Shown here: positions 22,361-35,252 of the stretch, piece by piece
How positions within the stretch are numbered: position 1 is the first letter of the stretch
Layout: every line of letters starts with the position of its first letter
Assembly: GCA_018261815.1 (NCBI GenBank)
Contig: JAGTRL010000004.1
Span: forward strand, 1 to 41,141
DNA from: Pseudomonadota bacterium
Lineage (GTDB): Bacteria; Pseudomonadota; Gammaproteobacteria; Burkholderiales; Burkholderiaceae_C
Length of the DNA: 41,141 bases
Reading direction: 5' to 3'
Program-made: the position numbers and the translations under genes
The notes under the pieces: model-generated
Seen by the model: only the letters and a program-made list of their open reading frames with translations
Database searches by the model: none
Told to the model about the DNA's origin: nothing

Positions 22361-22393
22361 CCGTGTTCGCTGGGAACAAGCTTTTGGTGGATT

Positions 22394-22457
22394 CTAATAT
22401 ATCTTGATTCTTATGTCATAGAACCGCATCACAGAACACTAATATAAGTTGATTCTT
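22394..22457 (+). repeat. 19-bp direct repeat in AT-rich DNA after glmS
   Basis: CTAATATATCTTGATTCTT (22394-22412) and CTAATATAAGTTGATTCTT (22439-22457) match at 17 of 19 positions, start-to-start 45 bp. The surrounding 120 bp are far more AT-rich than anything else in the window. It could be an operator pair, an iteron-like site or a remnant of imported DNA. Confidence 0.6.
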
Positions 22458-22606
22458 GAACAGATCTACGAGGGTGTATTCTCATCACAAACTAATGGCT
22501 TAATGCGCGAGAGAAGATTTGCCGTTGGAGCAAGATCGGAGTCCCCAAATCCCTTGTTCAGCAGAATGGGGGCAGTGAGGTTCTGCCTCTGACGCGCGAC
22601 TCTCGA

Positions 22607-22759
22607 ATGCCCGGTCCGGTCCGCGAACGGGTGCCCGCTATGAAGAAGCGTACCGGCATCGACCCATTCACCAAACAGGAGCGCACCTTCGCCGCTAAAC
22701 CGGTGGCCGTGCAGATCAAGACTCGCGCGCTGAAGAAGCTCAAGGACGAAGCACTCTGA
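22607..22759 (+). CDS. Small ORF resembling the C-terminal half of an HU-type protein
   Basis: A 50-codon ORF (internal ATG at 22640 gives 39). The end reads KKRTGIDPFTKQERTFAAKP, then a basic stretch finishing with ALKKLKDEAL. The R-TG-x-NP-like and ALKD elements recall the end of the HU/IHF fold, but the N-terminal half of HU is missing and no convincing ribosome-binding site precedes either ATG. The frame is open back to about 22493 without an ATG. It could be a truncated HU-like gene or a genuine short basic protein. Expression uncertain. Confidence 0.4.
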   Translation: MPGPVRERVPAMKKRTGIDPFTKQERTFAAKPVAVQIKTRALKKLKDEAL

Positions 22760-23345
22760 TCTGACAAGACCAGCGCATTGGCGTCGATTCCACTATTGGT
22801 CCGGCTGTGGCATTGAGGTGCTACCGCCGGCCTTCTCTTTGGATCCGCGAATCAGTGCATGGCTGTGCACTACGCGCTCTTTGGCCTGGCTTGCCGGCCA
22901 CGAAAGGCAGCTGACTGGCAATCTGGTTGGAACGCTGAAGCAAGCGGCGTTGGATCCAACGGTCGCAAGGTGCTGAACGCGTACTCCGAATTGAGCTGCT
23001 CCGGACCAGCCGTTCACCGGTACCGGCTGTCGACCCTTCAGCGACATCCGCGGGTATGAAGCCGCTGCCGCAAAGCTGCCAGTCGGACCGCGAGGCTCAC
23101 TGTAAGGAGTCGATCTTTGTGTCCCGTTGAGCCGGCATCGCGACATCGTGTTCTTGGGATGGCTGGCGCGGCCGGTAGCCCATAGTCTTGCCGTCAGGGG
23201 GTCGCCGGCATGAAGTATTGGCCACGGGGTTTGAGGCTCGGGGCTAGCGCACATCATGCCGCTGAATTGGTGCCAACGGCATGCATTCGACGGTTAAGCG
23301 CAGGTGATCCCAGCTTTTGGGCTCGACCGGGCCAAGGAGTCCTGA
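22760..23345. other. Non-coding, decayed stretch before the giant gene pair
   Basis: No ORF here has protein-like composition, a ribosome-binding site or codon bias matching the neighbours. GC is lower and irregular. A perfect 14-bp palindrome (CGTTGGATCCAACG, 22948-22961) is the only clear local structure. I read it as degraded mobile or foreign DNA; the promoter of the gene at 23346 is presumably within it, but I see no convincing hexamers. Confidence 0.5.
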
Positions 23346-26300
23346 ATGGCGCTGATTTCGATACATGTGCCCGAAGTGCCCGGGATACGGTTCCATCATG
23401 CGGGGCAGATCCTGGCTGCCGGCGCCGTGCTGGAGGTGAGTGACGACGTGGCCGTCGCGTCAGCCCTGTCCATCGCCCTGACCGACGAACTGCTCAGCGC
23501 CCAGGCCCAGCAAGGCGGGTTCGCCATGAGCGCCTCGCTCGACCCGGCCCAGGCAAGGCTGACGTTGCAGGCCGGGGCCGAAGCCGCGCCGCTGATCGGC
23601 CTCGATGTCGCCGGCGGGCTGTTCGAGATCCGCTGGCTCGCCTTGTCGATCCCGCTCGCCGATACCGACGCCGACGGGCTGCTCGATGCCGTGTCCGACA
23701 TCGGCCTGGTGCAGGCGAGCGGGCGCGTGCGCTGGCCCGGCGCGGCGGAACTGGGCTTCGGCGGCGCGGTCGAGTTCGACATCGGCTACGCCAACCAGCG
23801 CTTCACGCTGCTCTCGCCGCAGCCGATCGACTGGCCGACGCACAGTCCCGTGCTGCGGCTCGGTGCTGGCAGCCGGGTGTCGGCGCGCGTCTTCGCCGAC
23901 CGCCACCCGATGGAGCTCGAACTCGCGCTCGACGGTTCTGCCGGCGCTGCGCCGGGCGGGCAGTTGCAGCCCTTGCTGAACCAGGCCACCGCCGTGCTGC
24001 GCCAGTTGATCGGCGGCGCCGATGTGCTGCCGGCGATGCAGCAGTTCGCGCTGCGGCAGCGTTTCGTTCTGCCCGACGGCGGCGGCCTCGGCGCGCGAGC
24101 GCCGCGCTGGGACGCGACCCGCCTGCGCTTCGGGCTGGCCCTTGGCCTGGGGTCCGGCCGCGCACCGGCCGACGGCAGCTTCCTGCAGGCGCTGCCGGTC
24201 AGCGTGGCCTTCGGCGACGCGGCCTTCGACCTGCCCACGATCGGACCGGACACGTTCGGCGCTTGGCAGCTGCGTCTGCCCGACGTACGGATCGGCTTCC
24301 CGCAGGTGCCGGGGCTGGCGCTGCCGCTGCTGCGCGGCGACTTGCTCGTCGATGCCTTCGATGCCCAGGATCCGGCCGCCCTGGCGCTGAGCTTCGAGCC
24401 GGCACCGATGCAGGCGCTCGACCTTCCCGAGGCGCTGCGCTTCCTGCTCGCGCAATTGCGCTGGCTGGTGCGCGCGCTGTCGCTGGACGAACTGGCCGAA
24501 GCGGCCGGGCTGTCGCTCGACGAAGCGTCATGGCTCGAGTTCTTCACCGGCGCCCTCGGCGGCACCCCGTCGCAGGCCGTGATCGAGAACCTCGTGGAGC
24601 CGGCGCTGGCGGTGCTCGACGCCGAGCGCGTGTTTGCCCTGTTGCTGCGCGCCATTTCCCAGCTGGATCCGCTGGACGCCCAGGCAGGCTGGGCCGAGGT
24701 GGCCTGGCGCGCCTGGTTCTCGGTGGGCACCGCTGCGCTGCCGAGCGGCACCGACGCGCTGGCGGCGCTGGCGCGCCTGCTGCAGCAGCTGTTCGAGCTG
24801 GCCCCGCAGGCCGCGGCGTCGCTGACGGGTCCGCTGTTCGCGCAAGCCGCGTCGCTGCCGCTGCAGCCGGGGGCCTTTTTCACGGCCCTGCTGAACCTGG
24901 CGGCCGAGGTACCCCAGGCGCGGCTGTCCGACTTTGCCGCCCTCTGTGCGCGCCTGGTCGCGCTGGCGGCACAGCATCTGCCCTCGGGCCCGCAGGCCGG
25001 CGAGGTGGCCGCCGCGTTGCTCGACCTGCTGCGGCCGTCGCAGCGCTCGGCCGGGCTCGAGGCGCTGGCCCCGGCGCTGCCGCTGCCGGCTGCGCTGTTC
25101 GGCGAAGTCCGCCTGCCGCTGGCCGACTGGCTGGTGGGCCAGGTGATGGCCGCGCTGGCCGTCGGCCCGATGCAACTGGCGCCGCCCGTCGGCTGGGACC
25201 GCATCCCGGGCCTGGGCGACGCCACGGTGGCGGCGCTGGCGGCGCTGGTGCAGGAAGTCGAGGTCGCTCCTTCGCGCCTGTTGGCGATGTTCCAGGGCTT
25301 GTTCGCATCGATGGATCTGGCCTCGCTGGACGACCCCGACGAGCGCGCGCTCGCCCTCGAGCGCGAATGGACGATGCTGAACCTGGTGCGGCGCTACCCG
25401 CCCGCGGCGCTGCTGCTGATCCCGGCGTCGATCGGCTTCACGTTCTGGCAGTTCCCCGGCGTGTTCGCGCGCCTGGTCGGCAAGGATGTCGAGAAGGACG
25501 CCGACCTGGTCACCGCGCGGCTGCACGAGCCCGGCCCGGGCACCCGCTACCTGATCGTCAGCGACCTGCATCGCGACGCCGAGAGCGACAACCGCGGCCT
25601 GCTCGAGTTCGGCTCGATCGACCACTTCAGCGACAACCGCGCGCTGTACCGCCAGGTGCTCGCCTGGGTGCGCGACAACGGCGTGACGCTGATCGAGAAC
25701 GGCGACTGCGAGGAGCTGTGGTACATCCGCGAGGCCTTCGAGTACGCCACGCCGATGGCCAAGATGCAGGCCATCCTCGATCACCACCGTGAGGTCTATG
25801 CCGACCTGTGGGAGCTGCACGCGGCCGGGCGCTACTGGCGGGTCATCGGCAACCACGACTCGTACCTGCGCGAGATGATGTCGCCGCTCACCCAGGCGGG
25901 GGTGACGCGGCCTTGGCTGCAGTGGCAGTGGAAGGCGGCGGCCGATGCGGTGCGCTCCGGGCTTGCGGACATCAACGCCTGCGAGGAGCTGAAGCTGCAC
26001 GACTTCCTGGTCATCGACGGCGTCAAGACGATGGCCGACAACGGCTTCTTCGAACTGATCGGTGACGCCTGGGCGTTGCCGGCCAACCCGCAGGCGGCGG
26101 TGGCCGCGATGCTCAACGGCCGGCTGGGCATGGATGCCGCCGCCTACATCGAAAAAAAACCGATGCTGGTCTGCCATGGCCACCAGTTCGACGTCTGGAA
26201 CAGCGACTCGACGGCGGTCATCGGCAAGCTGATCTCCAACGGCGTCGGCGTGCCGGTCGACCAGCTGATGGACCCGTTCCTCGACCTGCGCGGCATCGCG

Positions 26301-27638
26301 CTGGCCGGCAGCGCGCTGCTCGACCTGCGCAACCTGCTGGGGCGCGCGCCAGTGGCCAACAACTGGCTGGCCGACAGCGTGGCCCTGCGCATGGCGCACC
26401 AGATCCAGCACCAGGACGACGCGACGCGGCTGCCGATCGACGACGTGATGTTCTCGGAATCGATGGCGATGCTGTTCGGCAGCTACACGATGCCGCTGGA
26501 CCAGCCGGTTTGGGACGGCGACAGCGTCGAGCGCAACGGCAGCGGCGCGATCGTCGTCGCGCCGCTCCCGCTCGACCCGCTGTTCCGGCTCGGCAACCAC
26601 CTGTGCATCGGCCACACGCACATCCCGCAGAGCCAGCCCTACTACCAGATCCCCGACCCGTTCGCCGCGCCGCTGCGTCCGCTGGTCGAGGCGGCGCAGG
26701 GGGTGGTCAACGCGTTGCTGCCGCTCGGCCTGGACTACACCACCGACAGCGGTGTGCGCGCGCCGCTGCGCAGCCGCTACTACAACACCGGCACGGCGAG
26801 CTGGTTCCGTGGCGTCATCTGGGGCATCGAGATCACGCCCAGCGGGCAGGCGCGCGCCGTCTTCTTCACCGAGAACAGCCGTGGTCCCGAGACCATGGAG
26901 TGGGAGCTCACCGACCTCGACGAAGACGTGCGCAGGCGCATCGCCGAGCTGGTCGAAGCCCTGCCCGAGGGCAGCCTGCTCGACTGGCTGGCCGCGCGGC
27001 TGGCCGAAGCCCGCGACTACCTGGGCGACCGCTTCGCCGATGCGCTGGCGCAGCTCGGGGTGTCGCGCAACGTGGCCCTGCCGCTGCAGGCGCTGCTGTT
27101 CGTCGATGCCAGCGGCGGCGAGCCGGACAACATCGTGCTCGAGCGCATCGATTCGCTTGGCGGTGGCGCCGTTGCCGGCGAGATCGAGGCGGCCGCGGCG
27201 CAACTGGGGCGGCTGCAGGCGTTCTTCTTCCGCCTCGTCGCACTACTGGTGCAGCGCCATGCCGGTGTCGGCGCCAGCGTCGACGGCCGCAGCTTCAGCG
27301 TCCGATTGACGGTGGACAGCGCCAGCCGCCAGCGCCTGCAGCAGCTGCACGAGCTGTTCGCACCGCTGGCGGGCAACCGCGCCGACCCACTCGCCGCCGC
27401 GTGTTTCCTGGCGCTGTATCGCTTGCCGATGCTCGGCGCCGACCCGGTCGCGCTGCCGTCGGCGCTGCGCATGGTGCAGGGGCGCGCGCCGGTGCTGGTC
27501 GCGCTGCTGTCGCTGGCCGCCACGCTGCCCTTCGGCGTTGCGGTGGCGCCCGTGCCGGGCGGTGTCGCTCTGCAGGCCAGTCTGGGCATCGAGGGCGATG
27601 CCGTGGTGCTGTCGGTGCAGTTGCAGGAAACGTCATGA
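23346..27638 (+). CDS. Giant protein with calcineurin-like metallophosphoesterase domain
   Basis: A 1430-residue protein with no signal peptide. Residues 1 to about 330 look beta-rich (alternating LxLxL patterns), about 360-700 are helical and Leu/Ala-rich, and about 735-1170 form a metallophosphoesterase: SDLHRD (739-744), NGDCEE (785-790), GNHD (835-838), CHGH (943-946) and GHTH (1089-1092). All five metal-binding blocks are present; the GDxxE form resembles LpxH-type enzymes. The rest (1170-1430) is alpha/beta with unknown relatives. ATG 23346 has AAGGAG six bases upstream. Substrate unknown: a phosphodiester or phosphomonoester. Linked to the next giant gene through a 19-codon overlapping ORF. 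An A8 run at 26152-26159 lies within the catalytic domain. The domain call is firm; I do not recognise the architecture. Confidence 0.85.
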   Translation: MALISIHVPEVPGIRFHHAGQILAAGAVLEVSDDVAVASALSIALTDELLSAQAQQGGFAMSASLDPAQARLTLQAGAEAAPLIGLDVAGGLFEIRWLALSIPLADTDADGLLDAVSDIGLVQASGRVRWPGAAELGFGGAVEFDIGYANQRFTLLSPQPIDWPTHSPVLRLGAGSRVSARVFADRHPMELELALDGSAGAAPGGQLQPLLNQATAVLRQLIGGADVLPAMQQFALRQRFVLPDGGGLGARAPRWDATRLRFGLALGLGSGRAPADGSFLQALPVSVAFGDAAFDLPTIGPDTFGAWQLRLPDVRIGFPQVPGLALPLLRGDLLVDAFDAQDPAALALSFEPAPMQALDLPEALRFLLAQLRWLVRALSLDELAEAAGLSLDEASWLEFFTGALGGTPSQAVIENLVEPALAVLDAERVFALLLRAISQLDPLDAQAGWAEVAWRAWFSVGTAALPSGTDALAALARLLQQLFELAPQAAASLTGPLFAQAASLPLQPGAFFTALLNLAAEVPQARLSDFAALCARLVALAAQHLPSGPQAGEVAAALLDLLRPSQRSAGLEALAPALPLPAALFGEVRLPLADWLVGQVMAALAVGPMQLAPPVGWDRIPGLGDATVAALAALVQEVEVAPSRLLAMFQGLFASMDLASLDDPDERALALEREWTMLNLVRRYPPAALLLIPASIGFTFWQFPGVFARLVGKDVEKDADLVTARLHEPGPGTRYLIVSDLHRDAESDNRGLLEFGSIDHFSDNRALYRQVLAWVRDNGVTLIENGDCEELWYIREAFEYATPMAKMQAILDHHREVYADLWELHAAGRYWRVIGNHDSYLREMMSPLTQAGVTRPWLQWQWKAAADAVRSGLADINACEELKLHDFLVIDGVKTMADNGFFELIGDAWALPANPQAAVAAMLNGRLGMDAAAYIEKKPMLVCHGHQFDVWNSDSTAVIGKLISNGVGVPVDQLMDPFLDLRGIALAGSALLDLRNLLGRAPVANNWLADSVALRMAHQIQHQDDATRLPIDDVMFSESMAMLFGSYTMPLDQPVWDGDSVERNGSGAIVVAPLPLDPLFRLGNHLCIGHTHIPQSQPYYQIPDPFAAPLRPLVEAAQGVVNALLPLGLDYTTDSGVRAPLRSRYYNTGTASWFRGVIWGIEITPSGQARAVFFTENSRGPETMEWELTDLDEDVRRRIAELVEALPEGSLLDWLAARLAEARDYLGDRFADALAQLGVSRNVALPLQALLFVDASGGEPDNIVLERIDSLGGGAVAGEIEAAAAQLGRLQAFFFRLVALLVQRHAGVGASVDGRSFSVRLTVDSASRQRLQQLHELFAPLAGNRADPLAAACFLALYRLPMLGADPVALPSALRMVQGRAPVLVALLSLAATLPFGVAVAPVPGGVALQASLGIEGDAVVLSVQLQETS

Positions 27639-27694
27639 GCCGCCGGGCCGTTCCCAAGGCGAATACCGCAGCGCGCAGCGCGGAGGTTGCCTGA
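27635..27694 (+). CDS. 19-codon coupling ORF between the two giant genes
   Basis: ATG at 27635 overlaps the metallophosphoesterase stop (ATGA), and the TGA at 27692-27694 overlaps the ATG of the next gene (TGATG). The peptide would be MSRRAVPKANTAARSAEVA. Both overlaps are the standard signature of translational coupling. It may be a chance reading of the 55-bp spacer, because the downstream gene also has its own GGAGG, but the double overlap is notable. Confidence 0.4.
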   Translation: MSRRAVPKANTAARSAEVA

Positions 27695-30600
27695 TGAACG
27701 GCCCTCTGGTCGCCGAACTGCAGTCCCTGACGCTGCGGTATGGCGCGGGTGGTTTGCCGGCGGTCGCCGCGCTGGGCAGCGTCGGCGCGCTGCAGGTCGG
27801 GCTCGGCGCCGGTGCGGTCGACGAAGCCGTCTGGCCGGCGGCGCTGTTCGACGCGCTGGCGGCCGATGCCGCCGCGCGGCCCGAAGCCGGCAGCGCGACG
27901 CAGGCCTTCCTGGCCGAGGTGGCCGCCGCGCGCAGCGCTCTCGAGCAGGTTGGTGCCGTCTGGCTGCGCGTCGGCGACGGCGTGCCGGCGTCACAGGTGG
28001 CCTGGATCGCCGTTTTCGGCGATGAGTTCGTGCAGCTGGTCGGCGTGCAGGCGCTGCCCGCGCTGCCGGTCGAACTGCCCGGCTTCGAGGGCGAAGGCAC
28101 GGCCTGGCTGGGGGTGTCGCTGCGCCTGCGCGGCCAGGGCGAAACGCTGGCGGTCGAGCGTGCACGGTTGCTGCTGCTGGGCGCCGTGCACGCCAACCCG
28201 GGTGCAGGGGTCGGCGCGTTCGTGCTGGAGGGCGCGCACGGCACGGTCGAGCTGTCGATCCAGGCCGCGCTGCTGCCGCCGATCACGGCCCTGCTCGACG
28301 ATCCGCAGGCCGCGCTGCAAGGCGTCTGGGACGGCGAGCTGAAGGCCACGCTCGGCTTCACCGCCGCGGGCAGCTTCTTCGGCCTTGACATTCAGGCCGA
28401 CCGCAACGTGAGCCTCGACGCGCGCGTGCGCTCGCTCGCCGGCAACGCCAAGCTGCAAATCGAGCACCTGCAGCTCGTCGACGCGATGACGGTCGGCGGC
28501 GGCCTGCCGCTGGCGGTGTCCGCGCTCCGACTCACGCTGCGCGCCAAGTTGCACGGCGTGCGGCTTGATAACGGCCCGAGTCCGGGACTGCGCCTCGCTG
28601 CCACGGGTCTGGCTCACCTGACGCTGGACATTCCTGACGGCCCTGTGCTGGCGGAACCTCTGGCCGGTGCGATCGATGCCGAGGTCAGCTTCGAGCATGA
28701 GCCCGATGGGGAGGACCGTTTGGCGCTGCGGCTGGCCGGCGCGGTGCCGGTGCCGGGATCGGCGGTCAATCGCTTCGGCCTGGCGCCGGCCGATCTGCAG
28801 CTCACCCTGCTGCGCCCGCCCGGTGTCGGCGCCGCGGCCCGGCCCTGGCAGTTGGCGCTGCGCGCGCGCTTCGTGCAGCCCTGGCAGCAGGTCGCGGCGG
28901 CGCTGCACGGCGCACTGCGGCTGCTGCCCGGCATCGATGCCGCCCCGCTTGCGGGGGTGGGCCTGCCCGACCTGCGCTGCGCGCTGCACGTCGAGGTGAG
29001 CAACAGCCCGCGCCTGCGGCTCGACCTCGAACTGGTCGAGCAGGCGCCGCCGGCCGCCTGGCCGGCCGGCGGCACGCTGGTCGACCGCTACAGTCACTAC
29101 GACGGCCCGCTCGGCCCGCTGCCGCTGGACGTGGCCGACGCGACCTTCCGGCTCGAGCTGCCGCTGCAGGGCGACATGACGCCGACGGCCTCCGGGCAGC
29201 TTCGCCTCACGTCGGCCTGGCAGCGCATCGGCGCGGCCGACGTGTTGCCGCCGCTGGCCGGCGTGCTGTGCCAGTTCGCTCTGCAGCCGGGCGAAGACGG
29301 TGCGCCGCCGTCACTGAAGCTCAGCGCCGAGCGCGGCTTCCCACCGCTGCGCCTGCCGGTGCCGGGGCGCGCGCCGATCACGCTGATCCACCCCGAGCGC
29401 TTCGAGCTGGCCTTCGGCCAGGCCTTCGAACTGAGCGCCGAAGCCGTGCTGGCCGATCAGTCGCTGTTCGATGCGCTGCGCGACAGCTTCGACCTGCCCG
29501 CCGACTGGCAGCCGTTGGTCGATGCGCTGCAGGCCGCGGTGGCCGGCGTGCGCGGTTCGTTGCGACTGTGCCTGCCGCTGACCGAGGCCGGCGACGCTGC
29601 CGCTTGCCAGGCGCCCACGCTGCGCATCGAGCTGCGTGCCGGCGACAGCGCCTGGATCGACCTGTTCGAGACGCTGGCCGGCGCCGGCGCGCCCCTCGCG
29701 CCGGTTCCGGCGGACACCCCGACCGAAGCCGACCGGGACGGCCGCCTCGACCAACGCAGCGCCCAGTTCGAGCTCGTCCATGACGACGGCGACGGCCCGT
29801 TTGCGTTGCGGACCCAGGCGCTGGTGTTCGAGGTGGCGCTGCCCGACTCGGGGGCCGAACTGCATCTGCAGGCCACCGTGCTGGCACGCGTGCTCGGCGA
29901 GACCTTCGATGCCGGGCTGTACTTCGACTTCGAGCGCGGCCAGCCGGCACTGCGGCTGGCCACCGGCGTCGAGGACCCGGTGCGCATTGCCGTGCCGGGC
30001 GCGGCGCCGGGCTTCGTCGACATCACGGCGCTGGTCACGCAGGTCCGAAACGATCTGTTTGGCCGCAACGTCGGCCACGACGGGTCGATCGAGGAGGTGC
30101 TGCAGGACTGGAACGACGTCTTCGCCACGCTGGCGGGCAGCGCGGACGAGCCGCTGCTGGTGTTCGAGCTGAAGAACCTGCAGTTGCGCTTTGCTTTCGG
30201 CGAGAACGGGCTCGACGTCGGCGCCAGCGGTGGCGTGCAGATCGTGCAGCTGCCGCCGCTGCTCAACGACGTGCTGCCGCTGCCCGGGCCGACCGCGGTG
30301 CTCGGCGCCACCGCCACCAGCATCTTCATCGAGCTGCAGCCGCCCCTCGTCGTCGACGACGCCCAGCCGGTGCCGCTGATCTCGATCCCGCTGGCGCGCG
30401 CGGGCACGGTCGGCGTCAACGGCGAGACGCTGGACGGGCCGCAGACCCTCGACCTGTACTTCGGCGGCTTCGCGCTCGGTTATTCGTGGGCGCCGTCGGC
30501 GGTGCAGCTGCGGCTGAAGGCCGGGCTCGGCCTGCCGCAGGCGCTGCTGGCGCTGGCCGACTTCTCGCCGCTGGCCTACCGATTGCCCCCCGGACAACCG

Positions 30601-33600
30601 GGCAGTCCATCGGCCTGGATCGACGTCGAGTTGCGCCAACTGACGGCGCAGGCGCCGCCGATCCTGCTGTGGAACCTGAAGTTCGGCGACACCGACGCCC
30701 CACACGCCGACAACCGCGGCTTCGAGTACGTGCTGCAGGTGCCACGCGTGCCCGACCCGGCGGCACTGGCCGGGCCGCCGCTGCTGCATCAGCAGGATCT
30801 GTTCGTGCAGTACCTGCGGCGCTTCTCGCTGATCCCGATGACGCAGCTGATGTACCCGGCGATCGAACTCGACTGGGGCGTGCAGGTCGGGCCCGACCGA
30901 TGGTTCGATGCCCACGGCCGGGCGCACGACATAGAACCGGTGCTGCGCCTGCAGTTTCGCGGCACCACGCTGCAGCTGCTGCCGGCGCCACTGGTGGTGT
31001 TCTTCCCCTGGGCGGCGACGGTGCCGCCGCTGCTGCCGATCCCGCCCTGGAGCCCCGTCGGTGTGCTCGGCCTGTGGCCCGGGTTCGCGCTGCCGATGCT
31101 CGACTTCTACACCGGGGAAAAGCTGGGCACGGATCACGCCATCCAGGTGCTGGCGCGCATCCCGGGCGTGGTGCGCATCGAGGCTGGCCTGTCGCGGCCG
31201 ATGCCCAGCCTGCCGATTCCGGCTCTGATCGAACTGGCCCTGCTCGGCCAGCGGCTGCTGTCGGGCGATCTCGACGGCCTGCAGATGGCCGCGGATTCGG
31301 CGGTCCGCGACATCGCCTACCTCGAGGCCGATCTGCGGGTCGACCTGCCGGTGCTCCAGTTGTTTGGCGACGCGGTGGTGGACGCCAGCCCGTTCCCGAT
31401 CGAGGCCCATGTGCGCATCGATCTCGGCGACGCGCTGAACGCCGTCTTTCCGGTCGTGCGCGGTATCGGCAGCGCGCTGGTGGCGGCGCAGGACGCGGCG
31501 GCCGAGGTCGCCGGCACGGCGCAGCAGCGGGTCGAGCAGGCGACGGAGCAGGCGCGTGGCCTCTTCGTCGAACTGGACCGCCGGCAGTCGGCGCTGCTGA
31601 AGCTGGCGCCGCTGTCGGCCCGGCGCATGCATCACAGCCTGCAGGCCGGGTTCCGGCTGCCCGGCTTCAGCGTCGAGTTCGCGTGCAGCATCGCGGTGTG
31701 CCTGCTGGCGCCCGACGAGCTGGCGTACGAACTGCGTCTGTACCACGAGCGGCTGCGCCCGCGCCGGCAGCGGCTGCAGGATGCAATGAGCGGTGACGGT
31801 GACGGTGCGCCCGGGTTGCCGCCGCCGCTGGTGGTGTCTGGGTTATGGTGGATGGTGGAGTGGCACACTGTGCTCGAGGTGCTGCGCTTCGACAGCCACC
31901 CGCGCGGCGAGCGGGCAGCGCGCGCGGCGCGTACCCTGCGCACGCCACGGCTGGCCGAGGCGGTGCTGTCGCTCGCCACAGTGCGCTTGCTCGAGGGGCT
32001 GCGCGCCACCCAGCGGCCGAAGCTGCGCGCAAACTGGTTGCGCGGACTCGGCATCGATCCGGACGCCGACAAGAAGATCGGCGACTGGGCCCGCAATCAG
32101 GGCCCATACCCCGAGGCGAAGCTGCGCGAGGCCATCGCCACGGCCCTGCGGGCGCGGCAACGGGCCCGCGTGCGCTATCACCACAGCTTCGTGCGCGACG
32201 CCGGCGCGCTGGCCGAAGGGCTCGCGAAGCACGCGCTGCACTATGAAACGGACGACAAGCTCGAGCCCTGGCGCGCGGTGCTGCCGCTAGTCGATGCCAA
32301 GGCGCTGGTCGAGCGCCACCTGCCGAGCCAGACGGTCGGCGCGGCGACCGCGGCGCGGCTCGAGGCCGTGGTCAAGGGGCTGCAGCGCGGGACCGTCGGC
32401 ACGGCGCGCGAGATCGATGTCTTGCGCGCCGACCTCGAACGCCAGCTCGCCGCCGCGCTAGGCCCCCGCGCCGGCGCGCGCGAGCCGGCCGCGCTGCTGC
32501 GCAGGCTGGCCGGTGAAGCCATCCGCACCAAGGCGCAGCCGCGTGGCCGCATCGTGCGCGGCGACCCGCAGGCGCTGGAAGCGCGGGTCGCCGAAATGCT
32601 GCGCGCGGTGCACCGGCCGGGCCGCTGGATCGCGCGCTTCGATGAACTGGCGCGGCGCGCGGCCACCGGCGAGGCGACCCACGAGGAGTTCGAGCGCGCG
32701 CTGAGGTCGCTGACGGCGGCCTATGCGCGGCTGCTCGAGGAGGCGGCGCTGGTCGGCCAGCAGCAGGGTGTGGCCTGGGCCGACGTCGCCCTGGTGTGTC
32801 TGAACCTGAGCAGCCGGGCCGCCGGCCTGCCGGCCTGGCAGCGTGTCACTGGGGAGTTCAAGGCGGGCTATGAGACTTCGCGCCTGGACCTGCGACAGGT
32901 CGGGCCCGCCTGGGCCGCGCTGCTGGCTGTCGACGAACCGCGGCCGCCAGCCGGGCCCGGCGCGGCCGCGCGGTGCCGCGTCGCGCAGGGCTACGCGCTG
33001 TTCTGCCGCGGCGCAGGCGGTGCGCTGCTCGACGAATCGGTGTTCATGCTGCCGGTGAACAGCGCCAACCCGCTGTTCGACGTCGTCGCGCAGGCCGGCA
33101 GCTACCGGCTGCGCTGCTGGGCGGTGGAGCGCATCGAGGCGCAGGGTGCGGCGGCCGGCGCCACCACGACGCTGGTGTCGGAGGCGGTGCTGCCACCGGC
33201 GGTGACGGCGCTCGAAGCCGACACGCCGGGCAAGGCCGGGCGGCTGCGCGCCCGGCTCGAGCTGCGCGAGCGCGCCGTCGAGCAGCCGGCCGCTGCGCCG
33301 CCGGCGCAGGCGCTGGTGTACGGCGCACAGTTCCACCGCGAGAGTGTGTTCTGGACCGCGGCCGATGCGGCCTTGCCGGCGCGGCCGGCCCAGCCGAGCC
33401 CGTTGTTCGAGCTCGCTGCACCGGCAGCCGGTGCGCCGCTGCCGGGCAGCCACGGCCGGCTCAACATCGCCGACCTGTTGGTGCGCTGGCCTGCGGCCGG
33501 GCCGCCGAGCTACATCGTGCCGAACCGGCCGGTGCTGCTGGCGGGCCTGGATCTGACGCTGTTGACCGCCGGTGGACCCAGTGAAGCCGGACGCCTGCAA

Positions 33601-34608
33601 AGCGGCTTCGTGCTCAAGCTGCGCGGTCTGGTGCTGCCCGGCGATGAACATTCGAGCCAGGTCGCCGCGTTGCCGGAGATCGGCGTCCTGCTGCCGCAGC
33701 CACCGTCGCTGTTCTTCGCGGCGCGCGTGGCGCAGACCCTGCACTTCGGCAACGCGGTCAGCGTCGAACTTGACGGCGAGTTCCGCTACCTGGCCGGGCC
33801 GGCCTGGGATCAGGTATCGCTGCATGCGCTCGACGATGGGCTGGGGTTCGAGCAAGGGCTGCGCTTTCGCGGGCTGGCGCGGCTGCGCGTGGGCGGCAAG
33901 GTGGTGGCCGAGGGCGCGGCGAGCGGTGGCTTCGACGGCACGCAGCTAAACCTGTTCATCGAGGTGGCGCTGAACCTGCCACCGACCACCGTGACGAGCG
34001 GGGACCTGGCGCAAAGCCTGAGCAACGACCTGATCGACGCAGCCGAGTTTCCCGGCCTGGCCCGCGTCACCTATTCGGCGCAGGGCCAGGCGACCCTGGC
34101 CCTCGAGCTGAGCCCGAGCCGGGTCGCGGTGACGGTCACTGCCGAGAACCTGAGCGGCTACGTGCAGGTCGATTGGGAAGTGCTGGAAGAGATCCCGGAG
34201 GTGGTGGGCGAAGTCTGCAGCTGGGTCCTGGAGCTCTACGAGGCCGCGGCGGACTTCGCCGAAGCTCTGGTCGAGCAAGCCGTTGATCTGGTCGAAAGCG
34301 GGCTCGCCGACGCCACCGGCAACCAGGTGAACATCAGGCTGCTCAACCCGTTCGGCGACGACGTCGTCATTGGGGTCTTCAAGCGCGTTTGTGAAGACGT
34401 GATCGAGATCGCCGAGCAGGTGGTGCCGCAAAGCACGCGCTTCCCGGCACTCGGCGGCGATGCAGAAGTGTCGGTGTCCGGCAGCTTCGACTCGAAGGAC
34501 GCCAAGGCCGTGTTCGATTTCGGCATCACGATGCCGGACGACAGGCATTGGGGCTGGCGCGTCGAACTGGATGGTGCTTGGCCCGACTGGTTCGTGGCGC
34601 CAGGATGA
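27694..34608 (+). CDS. Giant uncharacterised protein, 2304 residues
   Basis: I do not recognise this protein. ATG at 27694 has GGAGG seven bases upstream; the frame upstream of it belongs to the previous gene. Composition suggests three zones. About 1-1250 is beta-rich, with many short alternating strands such as LRLTLRAKLHGVRL, LALRLAGAVPV and LRLQFRGTTLQLL. About 1270-1740 is helical, Arg/Ala/Glu-rich and coiled-coil-like (AEVAGTAQQRVEQATEQAR, and around 1494 RYHHSFVRDAG). About 1760-2304 is again beta-rich, with an acidic amphipathic helix region near 2160-2210. No signal peptide, transmembrane helix, Walker, protease or nuclease motif was found. Cotranscription with the metallophosphoesterase implies a joint function. 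Long alternating beta strands would fit a lipid-groove or scaffold protein, but that is speculation. Confidence 0.8.
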   Translation: MNGPLVAELQSLTLRYGAGGLPAVAALGSVGALQVGLGAGAVDEAVWPAALFDALAADAAARPEAGSATQAFLAEVAAARSALEQVGAVWLRVGDGVPASQVAWIAVFGDEFVQLVGVQALPALPVELPGFEGEGTAWLGVSLRLRGQGETLAVERARLLLLGAVHANPGAGVGAFVLEGAHGTVELSIQAALLPPITALLDDPQAALQGVWDGELKATLGFTAAGSFFGLDIQADRNVSLDARVRSLAGNAKLQIEHLQLVDAMTVGGGLPLAVSALRLTLRAKLHGVRLDNGPSPGLRLAATGLAHLTLDIPDGPVLAEPLAGAIDAEVSFEHEPDGEDRLALRLAGAVPVPGSAVNRFGLAPADLQLTLLRPPGVGAAARPWQLALRARFVQPWQQVAAALHGALRLLPGIDAAPLAGVGLPDLRCALHVEVSNSPRLRLDLELVEQAPPAAWPAGGTLVDRYSHYDGPLGPLPLDVADATFRLELPLQGDMTPTASGQLRLTSAWQRIGAADVLPPLAGVLCQFALQPGEDGAPPSLKLSAERGFPPLRLPVPGRAPITLIHPERFELAFGQAFELSAEAVLADQSLFDALRDSFDLPADWQPLVDALQAAVAGVRGSLRLCLPLTEAGDAAACQAPTLRIELRAGDSAWIDLFETLAGAGAPLAPVPADTPTEADRDGRLDQRSAQFELVHDDGDGPFALRTQALVFEVALPDSGAELHLQATVLARVLGETFDAGLYFDFERGQPALRLATGVEDPVRIAVPGAAPGFVDITALVTQVRNDLFGRNVGHDGSIEEVLQDWNDVFATLAGSADEPLLVFELKNLQLRFAFGENGLDVGASGGVQIVQLPPLLNDVLPLPGPTAVLGATATSIFIELQPPLVVDDAQPVPLISIPLARAGTVGVNGETLDGPQTLDLYFGGFALGYSWAPSAVQLRLKAGLGLPQALLALADFSPLAYRLPPGQPGSPSAWIDVELRQLTAQAPPILLWNLKFGDTDAPHADNRGFEYVLQVPRVPDPAALAGPPLLHQQDLFVQYLRRFSLIPMTQLMYPAIELDWGVQVGPDRWFDAHGRAHDIEPVLRLQFRGTTLQLLPAPLVVFFPWAATVPPLLPIPPWSPVGVLGLWPGFALPMLDFYTGEKLGTDHAIQVLARIPGVVRIEAGLSRPMPSLPIPALIELALLGQRLLSGDLDGLQMAADSAVRDIAYLEADLRVDLPVLQLFGDAVVDASPFPIEAHVRIDLGDALNAVFPVVRGIGSALVAAQDAAAEVAGTAQQRVEQATEQARGLFVELDRRQSALLKLAPLSARRMHHSLQAGFRLPGFSVEFACSIAVCLLAPDELAYELRLYHERLRPRRQRLQDAMSGDGDGAPGLPPPLVVSGLWWMVEWHTVLEVLRFDSHPRGERAARAARTLRTPRLAEAVLSLATVRLLEGLRATQRPKLRANWLRGLGIDPDADKKIGDWARNQGPYPEAKLREAIATALRARQRARVRYHHSFVRDAGALAEGLAKHALHYETDDKLEPWRAVLPLVDAKALVERHLPSQTVGAATAARLEAVVKGLQRGTVGTAREIDVLRADLERQLAAALGPRAGAREPAALLRRLAGEAIRTKAQPRGRIVRGDPQALEARVAEMLRAVHRPGRWIARFDELARRAATGEATHEEFERALRSLTAAYARLLEEAALVGQQQGVAWADVALVCLNLSSRAAGLPAWQRVTGEFKAGYETSRLDLRQVGPAWAALLAVDEPRPPAGPGAAARCRVAQGYALFCRGAGGALLDESVFMLPVNSANPLFDVVAQAGSYRLRCWAVERIEAQGAAAGATTTLVSEAVLPPAVTALEADTPGKAGRLRARLELRERAVEQPAAAPPAQALVYGAQFHRESVFWTAADAALPARPAQPSPLFELAAPAAGAPLPGSHGRLNIADLLVRWPAAGPPSYIVPNRPVLLAGLDLTLLTAGGPSEAGRLQSGFVLKLRGLVLPGDEHSSQVAALPEIGVLLPQPPSLFFAARVAQTLHFGNAVSVELDGEFRYLAGPAWDQVSLHALDDGLGFEQGLRFRGLARLRVGGKVVAEGAASGGFDGTQLNLFIEVALNLPPTTVTSGDLAQSLSNDLIDAAEFPGLARVTYSAQGQATLALELSPSRVAVTVTAENLSGYVQVDWEVLEEIPEVVGEVCSWVLELYEAAADFAEALVEQAVDLVESGLADATGNQVNIRLLNPFGDDVVIGVFKRVCEDVIEIAEQVVPQSTRFPALGGDAEVSVSGSFDSKDAKAVFDFGITMPDDRHWGWRVELDGAWPDWFVAPG

Positions 34609-35252
34609 AGGGACAAAGGTATTCGCCCGCCTCAGGCCGTGTCGTGCGGTTCGTTCGTCGTGAGCCCTCGACATCAGCCAAGGCAGATGCCCCGAAGTCG
34701 ACCTTCGCCAACGGCAGGAATTGGCCGGTCAGAGCCGCCCACCAGCGACAGCTTCCCGGCTGCTCAGTTTGCATAGATTTCGACGTTGCAGGTCACTGCA
34801 GGTGGCTGGAAATCGCTCAGATCCGGGTCCGTTACAAATCCCGACAGACCATATTCCGAGGGTGCAAGGCGAGCGATCAAACTTGCGCAGTCCCGACAGG
34901 GGGTTGGGGAGTTAAAAGTGGACGCACTTCCCCGGTGAGGGCCCGACAGACCTTATTCCTATAGAACAAGCTTTGATCGGTGGGAATAAGGTCTGTCGGG
35001 CTCGGAATAAGGTCTGTCGGATGCTGCAGCGCACATGTTCATCACCCGGTTCGGGCCAGCCCGGCTGGCCCGACCGGCGGTGCTGACGCTGTCGGAGACA
35101 GCTGCCGCCGTTCAACGAGTTGCCCAAGGCTGCCACAACGCGGCGGCTCAACGGAGACAGCGGCATTCCCCGGCCGGCGCTGCCGGCCCGCGCTGAGCGG
35201 CACCCCGCACGACGCTTGGTCCGTCGCCCGCGGCAGGATTGTTGCGCCGCCG
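34609..35252. other. Intergenic stretch after the giant gene pair
   Basis: No credible gene. It contains the nested inverted-repeat element at 34840-35022; the rest is mixed-GC sequence. A minus-strand 84-codon frame (34912-35166) reads through the repeats and has repetitive nonsense-like peptide where it does, so it is not called. Confidence 0.5.
34840..35022. repeat. Nested inverted-repeat element (four copies of an 18-20 bp unit)
   Basis: Unit CCGACAGACCTTATTCC occurs as: copy A 34840-34857 (one mismatch), copy B 34942-34959, copy C 34983-35000 (inverted) and copy D 35004-35021 (inverted). B and C are perfect 18-bp arms around a 23-base centre. A and D extend together to 20 bp (CCGACAGACC-A/T-TATTCCGAG). 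A fifth partial copy (CCCGACAG) is at 34892. The layout resembles terminal inverted repeats of a small non-autonomous element, or tandem ends left by insertion sequences. Confidence 0.75.

Follow-up and report, generated by a model that had tools for sequence, protein, structure and literature searches.

Two long genes follow one another on the forward strand of the 41,141-nt stretch of DNA analysed here (the window), and they raise the question of whether they act as one unit and, if so, what kind of machine they encode. The features on which the argument depends are listed below.

23334..23339, forward strand: AAGGAG, ribosome-binding site of gene A, 6 nt 5' of A
23346..27638, forward strand: gene A, ATG to stop, 1430 aa
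25410..25466, forward strand: hydrophobic segment of A (residues 689-707), directly N-terminal of the phosphoesterase domain
25479..26909, forward strand: phosphoesterase region of A (residues 712-1188), with motif residues aligned in the family
27635..27694, forward strand: 19-codon open reading frame overlapping the stop of A (ATGA) and the start of B (TGATG)
27682..27686, forward strand: GGAGG, ribosome-binding site of gene B, 7 nt 5' of B
27694..34608, forward strand: gene B, ATG to stop, 2304 aa, without known family and homologous to a 2060-aa Anaerolineae protein

As the DNA has 70% G+C and antisense frames of 891 and 811 aa are likewise open, the length of a reading frame is little proof of coding here. 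The G+C content per codon position (0.755/0.472/0.919 in A and 0.787/0.494/0.895 in B) resembles that of glmS (0.699/0.439/0.920), and both proteins have homologues, so A and B are both genes. An earlier interpretation made from the letters alone (the sequence-only reading) had described two long same-strand genes with strong ribosome-binding sites, and this agrees with our results. It had further proposed that the genes are coupled through overlaps, which holds for the 19-codon mini-frame overlapping both, but not for A and B themselves, which are spaced 55 nt apart without mutual overlap. The mini-frame is missing from the 7-nt junction of the Anaerolineae pair described below.

The flanks are gene-poor, as that reading had stated, with 57% G+C and no codon-position bias at 22361-23345 and 63% G+C at 34609-35200. 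A 132-nt stretch at 22630-22761 is like part of a gene for an HU family DNA-binding protein, with 70.5-75% identity to plasmid copies (the best 8 of 13). Four copies of the 17-nt GGAATAAGGTCTGTCGG, one of them mismatched, lie at 34841-35020 in direct and inverted orientation, and none occurred in 100 shuffles. They are possibly the remains of a mobile repeat, perhaps of the kind found near REP-associated transposases. For the neighbouring dehydrogenase genes, the best matches in the plasmid collection were from Caballeronia (76-77% identity), which would fit a host akin to the Burkholderiales.

The same two genes were found in a second phylum. In an Anaerolineae locus of the Chloroflexota (L024, genome G495), a 1379-aa homologue of A is followed 7 nt on by a 2060-aa homologue of B, in the same order as in the window. 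The A proteins share 30% identity across residues 191-1250, and the B proteins 28% across residues 103-1357 (E 2e-71) with an extra C-terminal segment (E 5e-11); the two B sequences also aligned end to end. Among the genomes searched for B, it occurred only in the genome of the window (G000) and in G495. The two-sequence B profile matched a single genome, that of the window, among 274 of its class, three of 56 in the order of G495, two of these being weak matches in PKD columns (G858 and G785), and one of the seven genomes reached through family loci (G495), and a single B sequence matched one of three genomes, its own. Of the eight family genomes without B, six were covered by the profile, and G1229 and G1233 were compared by their fetched flanks only. 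In none of the genomes searched did B occur without long-form A, and the long N-terminus of A occurred only next to B among the loci compared.

As adjacency and order are kept in Chloroflexota and B always comes with long A, sequence comparison indicates that the pair is a real, rare, and co-conserved two-gene unit. This favours the earlier claim that the two proteins act together, and, given that both genes also lie side by side in another phylum, an uncharacterised enzyme of two parts is their probable product. A word search of open-access papers returned no description of the pair. The sequence-only reading had also named, as evidence against itself, homologues of one gene occurring mostly without the other, and the core of A was indeed without B in 8 of 10 family genomes. 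Overall, the sequence-only reading is partly supported.

The family to which the catalytic core of A belongs is sparse, with members in 10 distinct genomes from four phyla (Pseudomonadota, Chloroflexota, Calditrichota, and Cyanobacteriota). Full-length A matched one of 100 genomes, its own, with no match in 59 other genomes of the same genus (some incomplete), and its search against genome contigs gave 50 pattern matches without a single relative. The phosphoesterase part matched three of 398 genomes of the same phylum, namely its own, G198, and, marginally, G289. A two-sequence profile scanned against 84,980 species genomes recovered seven loci, from Caldithrix (L018), Rhodobacteraceae (L019, L020, and L022), Crocosphaera (L021), KSB1 (L023), and Anaerolineae (L024), a lower bound because two short peptide patterns underlie the scan. 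G198 and L019 share one 1735-aa protein, which was counted once. The family was present in 4 of 82 genomes of the phylum holding L018 and L023 and in 1 of 244 genomes of the cyanobacterial phylum, and no match to it was found in viral contigs, phages, and plasmids except for a PKD domain. In the class of L024, the core profile matched 57 of 396 genomes, with the full domain only in G495; the other 56 matches were weak (best 5e-17) and mostly open frames of 300-400 aa, that is, ordinary phosphoesterases. In a phylogenetic tree built without L012 (wrong reading frame) and the long-branched L028, nine family members formed a group separate from three ordinary phosphoesterases (100/100, midpoint root), with no resolved sister relation between the window and Anaerolineae forms.

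Across the 10 genomes, the core was accompanied by B in two, by a protein of ~430 aa in four, and by a fused C-terminal extension of ~1000 aa in four. The A relatives of the Calditrichota phylum have open frames of 982, 1254, 969, and 989 aa, and each adjoins the ~430-aa protein, which lies upstream of the A relative in three loci and downstream in L023.

L018, 7426-8730: ~430-aa protein
L023, 11837-13240: ~430-aa protein
L065, 11453-12745: ~430-aa protein
L066, 11308-12441: ~430-aa protein (cut off at the contig end)

No Pfam match was obtained for this protein in the three of its four copies that were scanned. Its profile matched 4 of 80 genomes of the phylum, precisely those that carry the A family, and as the profile was built from the copies at these four loci, the absence elsewhere is the informative part; the eight genomes left out of this search were all without the A family. 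The Rhodobacteraceae and Crocosphaera form is 1734-1798 aa long, and its C-terminal part of 980-1035 aa is common to both groups (36-37% identity). The two fused proteins examined (P0003 and P0009) carry transmembrane-like segments with hydropathies of 3.1 and 3.2. With B, the ~430-aa protein, or the fused extension present according to lineage, the core, as far as gene neighbourhoods and fusions tell, keeps lineage-specific company.

Several further genes and domains were observed at these loci. At the N-terminus of the KSB1 protein P0008 (L023, 8009-11773) lies a helix-hairpin-helix domain (PF14520, E 3.7e-7) that other scanned members lack and that, in this relative, suggests nucleic acid more than lipid; the single PADLOC match of P0008 was a weak one to a Cas12a model (E 0.05). 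A caspase-like gene (Peptidase_C14; L065, 13287-14075) is divergent from the A relative and from the ~430-aa gene that adjoins it, and a PP2C protein is encoded near the A relative of L066. Upstream of the Anaerolineae pair lies a 969-aa protein (L024, 4886-7795) that by eye has a hydrophobic segment at its N-terminus and for which there was no Pfam match at E 0.01 and no BLAST relative among the window's open reading frames.

The phosphoesterase site of A had been placed behind ~730 residues by the sequence-only reading, and it does begin near residue 735. The calcineurin-like superfamily is described by five blocks, D-Xn-GD-Xn-GNH(E/D)-Xn-H-Xn-GHXH, in the available text of PMC3087551, and all five were found in A. 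Residues D740, H742, D787, N836, H837, H944, H946, H1090, and H1092 were invariant in all nine members of the family alignment (L022 left out). The ligand residues stand in the same order as in the LpxH ligand list of PMC5016852, as far as its available text goes, and of H944 and H946, either may be the ligand. The region scored 16.0 bits against PF00149, less than the cut-off of 21.5, which is a Pfam cut-off and not the superfamily motif, and all six members of the core alignment matched PF00149 at E <=1 (best 0.00026). Four of four scanned ordinary phosphoesterases from Anaerolineae reached the cut-off, and A is thus linked to PF00149 through these intermediates.

Directly before the domain, a hydrophobic segment equivalent to that of A is present in all eight aligned relatives. 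In six of nine members, no other window of the aligned stretch is more hydrophobic, and the segment ranks third in A of the window and eighth and fourth in two Rhodobacteraceae. Its hydropathy in the window is only 1.46, which is below the usual transmembrane threshold.

The model of residues 1-1200 of A is of low confidence (mean pLDDT 46) and predicts a strand-rich N-terminus (~60-352), a helical array (~360-712), and an LpxH-like metallophosphoesterase (~732-1188). In this weak model, residues 732-1178 matched LpxH in 6ph9 (Z 7.9, rmsd 3.2 over 134) and 5b49 (Z 7.2, rmsd 3.3 over 130), with further matches to 6pib and 9ccz (both Z 7.6) and to Mre11 (3dsd, Z 6.2); according to the tool, a Z below 8 may reflect a common arrangement, and 7-8 is typical background. 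That four LpxH entries from two species match across the full domain lends the LpxH match some weight. The list as a whole was headed by helical-repeat matches to another part of A, and those of the helical array (residues 387-639) were within background for helical models. A Foldseek search of the model gave nothing at E 0.001. Sequence searches of solved structures with A, B, the core profile, the 430-aa profile, the B profile, and one Anaerolineae phosphoesterase yielded no convincing match.

B had been described as having no recognisable domain, and the library searches agree: neither A nor B has a Pfam match near the curated cut-off, an NCBIfam match up to E 1, or a PHROGs match up to E 0.1. 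DUF7210 for A (E 0.34) and Gas_vesicle_C for B (E 0.27) were both under the Pfam cut-off and were rejected. The B model (residues 1-1195, pLDDT 30) is unusable, the internal repeats are insignificant (best probability 5%), and when profiles were compared, B showed no kinship to the 430-aa protein, the fused C-terminus, or the N-terminal part of A, although with 2-4 sequences per profile the comparison is insensitive. A Nonomuraea match to the Anaerolineae B was rejected as a relative, as it rests on a PKD domain (PF18911 and PF00801), a domain that Pfam did not detect in B of the window. B and the 430-aa protein are proposed as new families for structural study.

We give roughly an even chance to the reading that A and B together make up one two-subunit phosphohydrolase, either cytoplasmic or peripheral to the membrane, with A catalytic, B handling the substrate or serving as scaffold, and a lipid-like or membrane-near substrate. 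A would belong to the LpxH-like branch of two-metal calcineurin-type phosphoesterases and have the usual catalytic His (GNHD), its domain mounted on the helical array and the strand-rich N-terminus. The insert between its motifs four and five is enlarged and would lie at the position of the substrate-binding helical insertion of LpxH. B would be the obligate partner of long-form A and act as a scaffold, either presenting or shielding the substrate or positioning the enzyme, a role suggested by its size, its adjacency to A, and its lack of a recognised catalytic domain. The most likely substrate would be a lipid-like or membrane-near molecule carrying a phosphate ester or pyrophosphate, the lipid part being the weakest step, drawn from the LpxH-like match and the hydrophobic segment. 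Physical complex, catalysis, substrate class, and the role of B are what we infer in this reading; the poor A model, the unusable B model, and the presence of the pair in two genomes only stand against it, and no lipid-metabolism gene was seen to recur beside the family. The PF00149 score under the cut-off, the low hydropathy of the segment in A, and the helix-hairpin-helix domain of P0008 also count against it.

An anti-phage or conflict system, with giant B as sensor and A as an effector that breaks down nucleic acid or a nucleotide signal, seems unlikely. It would suit the accessory and patchy occurrence of full-length A within its genus, the helix-hairpin-helix domain of the KSB1 relative, and the neighbours of relatives, namely the caspase of L065, a papain-family protease in L018, and apparent type I restriction genes (by eye) in L023, and calcineurin-like domains do act as effectors in conflict systems (available text of PMC8195603). 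However, PADLOC (2023 library) gave no match at E 0.1 for A, B, P0007, and the ~430-aa partner, Pfam detected neither an NTPase nor a nucleic-acid domain in either A or B, and viral contigs, phages, and plasmids yielded only the PKD-domain match. Furthermore, each protease neighbour is a single case, and neither protease recurs in the four Calditrichota-phylum loci (BLAST of longest non-overlapping open reading frames; one locus of 12 kb).

Less probable still is a beta-rich lipid carrier, in which B, perhaps with the N-terminus of A, holds a glycolipid in an amphipathic beta groove while A trims its phosphate head. Strands are predicted in the N-terminal parts of A, at low confidence, and of B, at no usable confidence, both proteins are without a strong N-terminal hydrophobic segment, and the catalytic fold is LpxH-like. 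Nevertheless, neither Pfam nor NCBIfam gave A or B a match to a known carrier family, and Pfam gave none to beta-groove lipid-transfer proteins (AsmA/TamB/VPS13 type); the B model is unusable, and the internal repeats of B are insignificant. That A and B are merely co-travelling neighbours with independent functions appears the least probable of these. The core without B in most family genomes and a pair observed only twice would fit, but the double adjacency makes it unlikely, with two rare genes next to each other in the same order in two phyla at junctions of 55 and 7 nt and the long N-terminus of A confined to loci with B.

Beyond the two-subunit phosphohydrolase, it is conceivable, though we hold it at somewhat under an even chance, that the rare phosphoesterase core serves as the constant motor in a class of enzyme machines not described before, its partner being B, the 430-aa protein, or an extension that is fused and membrane-anchored, according to lineage. 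The pair of the window would then be the largest version, and B the first of a new family, possibly with a new fold. The analysis ties proteins of 1430 and 2304 residues that lie outside the searched family libraries to one sparse phosphoesterase family, and what was an orphan pair becomes a hypothesis open to test, a putative two-subunit enzyme with defined catalytic residues.

Among known systems, STAND/TRADD-N conflict systems likewise carry a calcineurin-like domain in a large accessory protein (available text of PMC8195603), whereas A and B have no STAND NTPase or adaptor domain by Pfam and no PADLOC match. LpxH2 and other PF00149 enzymes share with A the five-block motif with the catalytic His, and the profile link to them runs through Anaerolineae proteins of 299-363 aa; unlike them, A scores under the PF00149 cut-off, and its family is separate in the midpoint-rooted tree. 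LpxH gave the best phosphoesterase matches to the low-confidence model of A. The helical insertion of LpxH sits between the fourth and fifth motif, where A also has an insert. The metal ligands are of the same kinds and in the same order (available text of PMC5016852). However, Arg replaces His in block 3 of LpxH, giving GNRD as its diagnostic (available text of PMC5016852 and PMC3087551), whereas A has GNHD, with His837 in block 3 and His in 9 of 9 aligned members. A is therefore not LpxH, the diagnostic Arg being absent. The listed LpxH chains are also of 239-245 residues, in contrast to the 1430 aa of A with its large extra regions and giant partner. On these sequence comparisons, the pair is built on a known catalytic superfamily and joined to a partner without known family.
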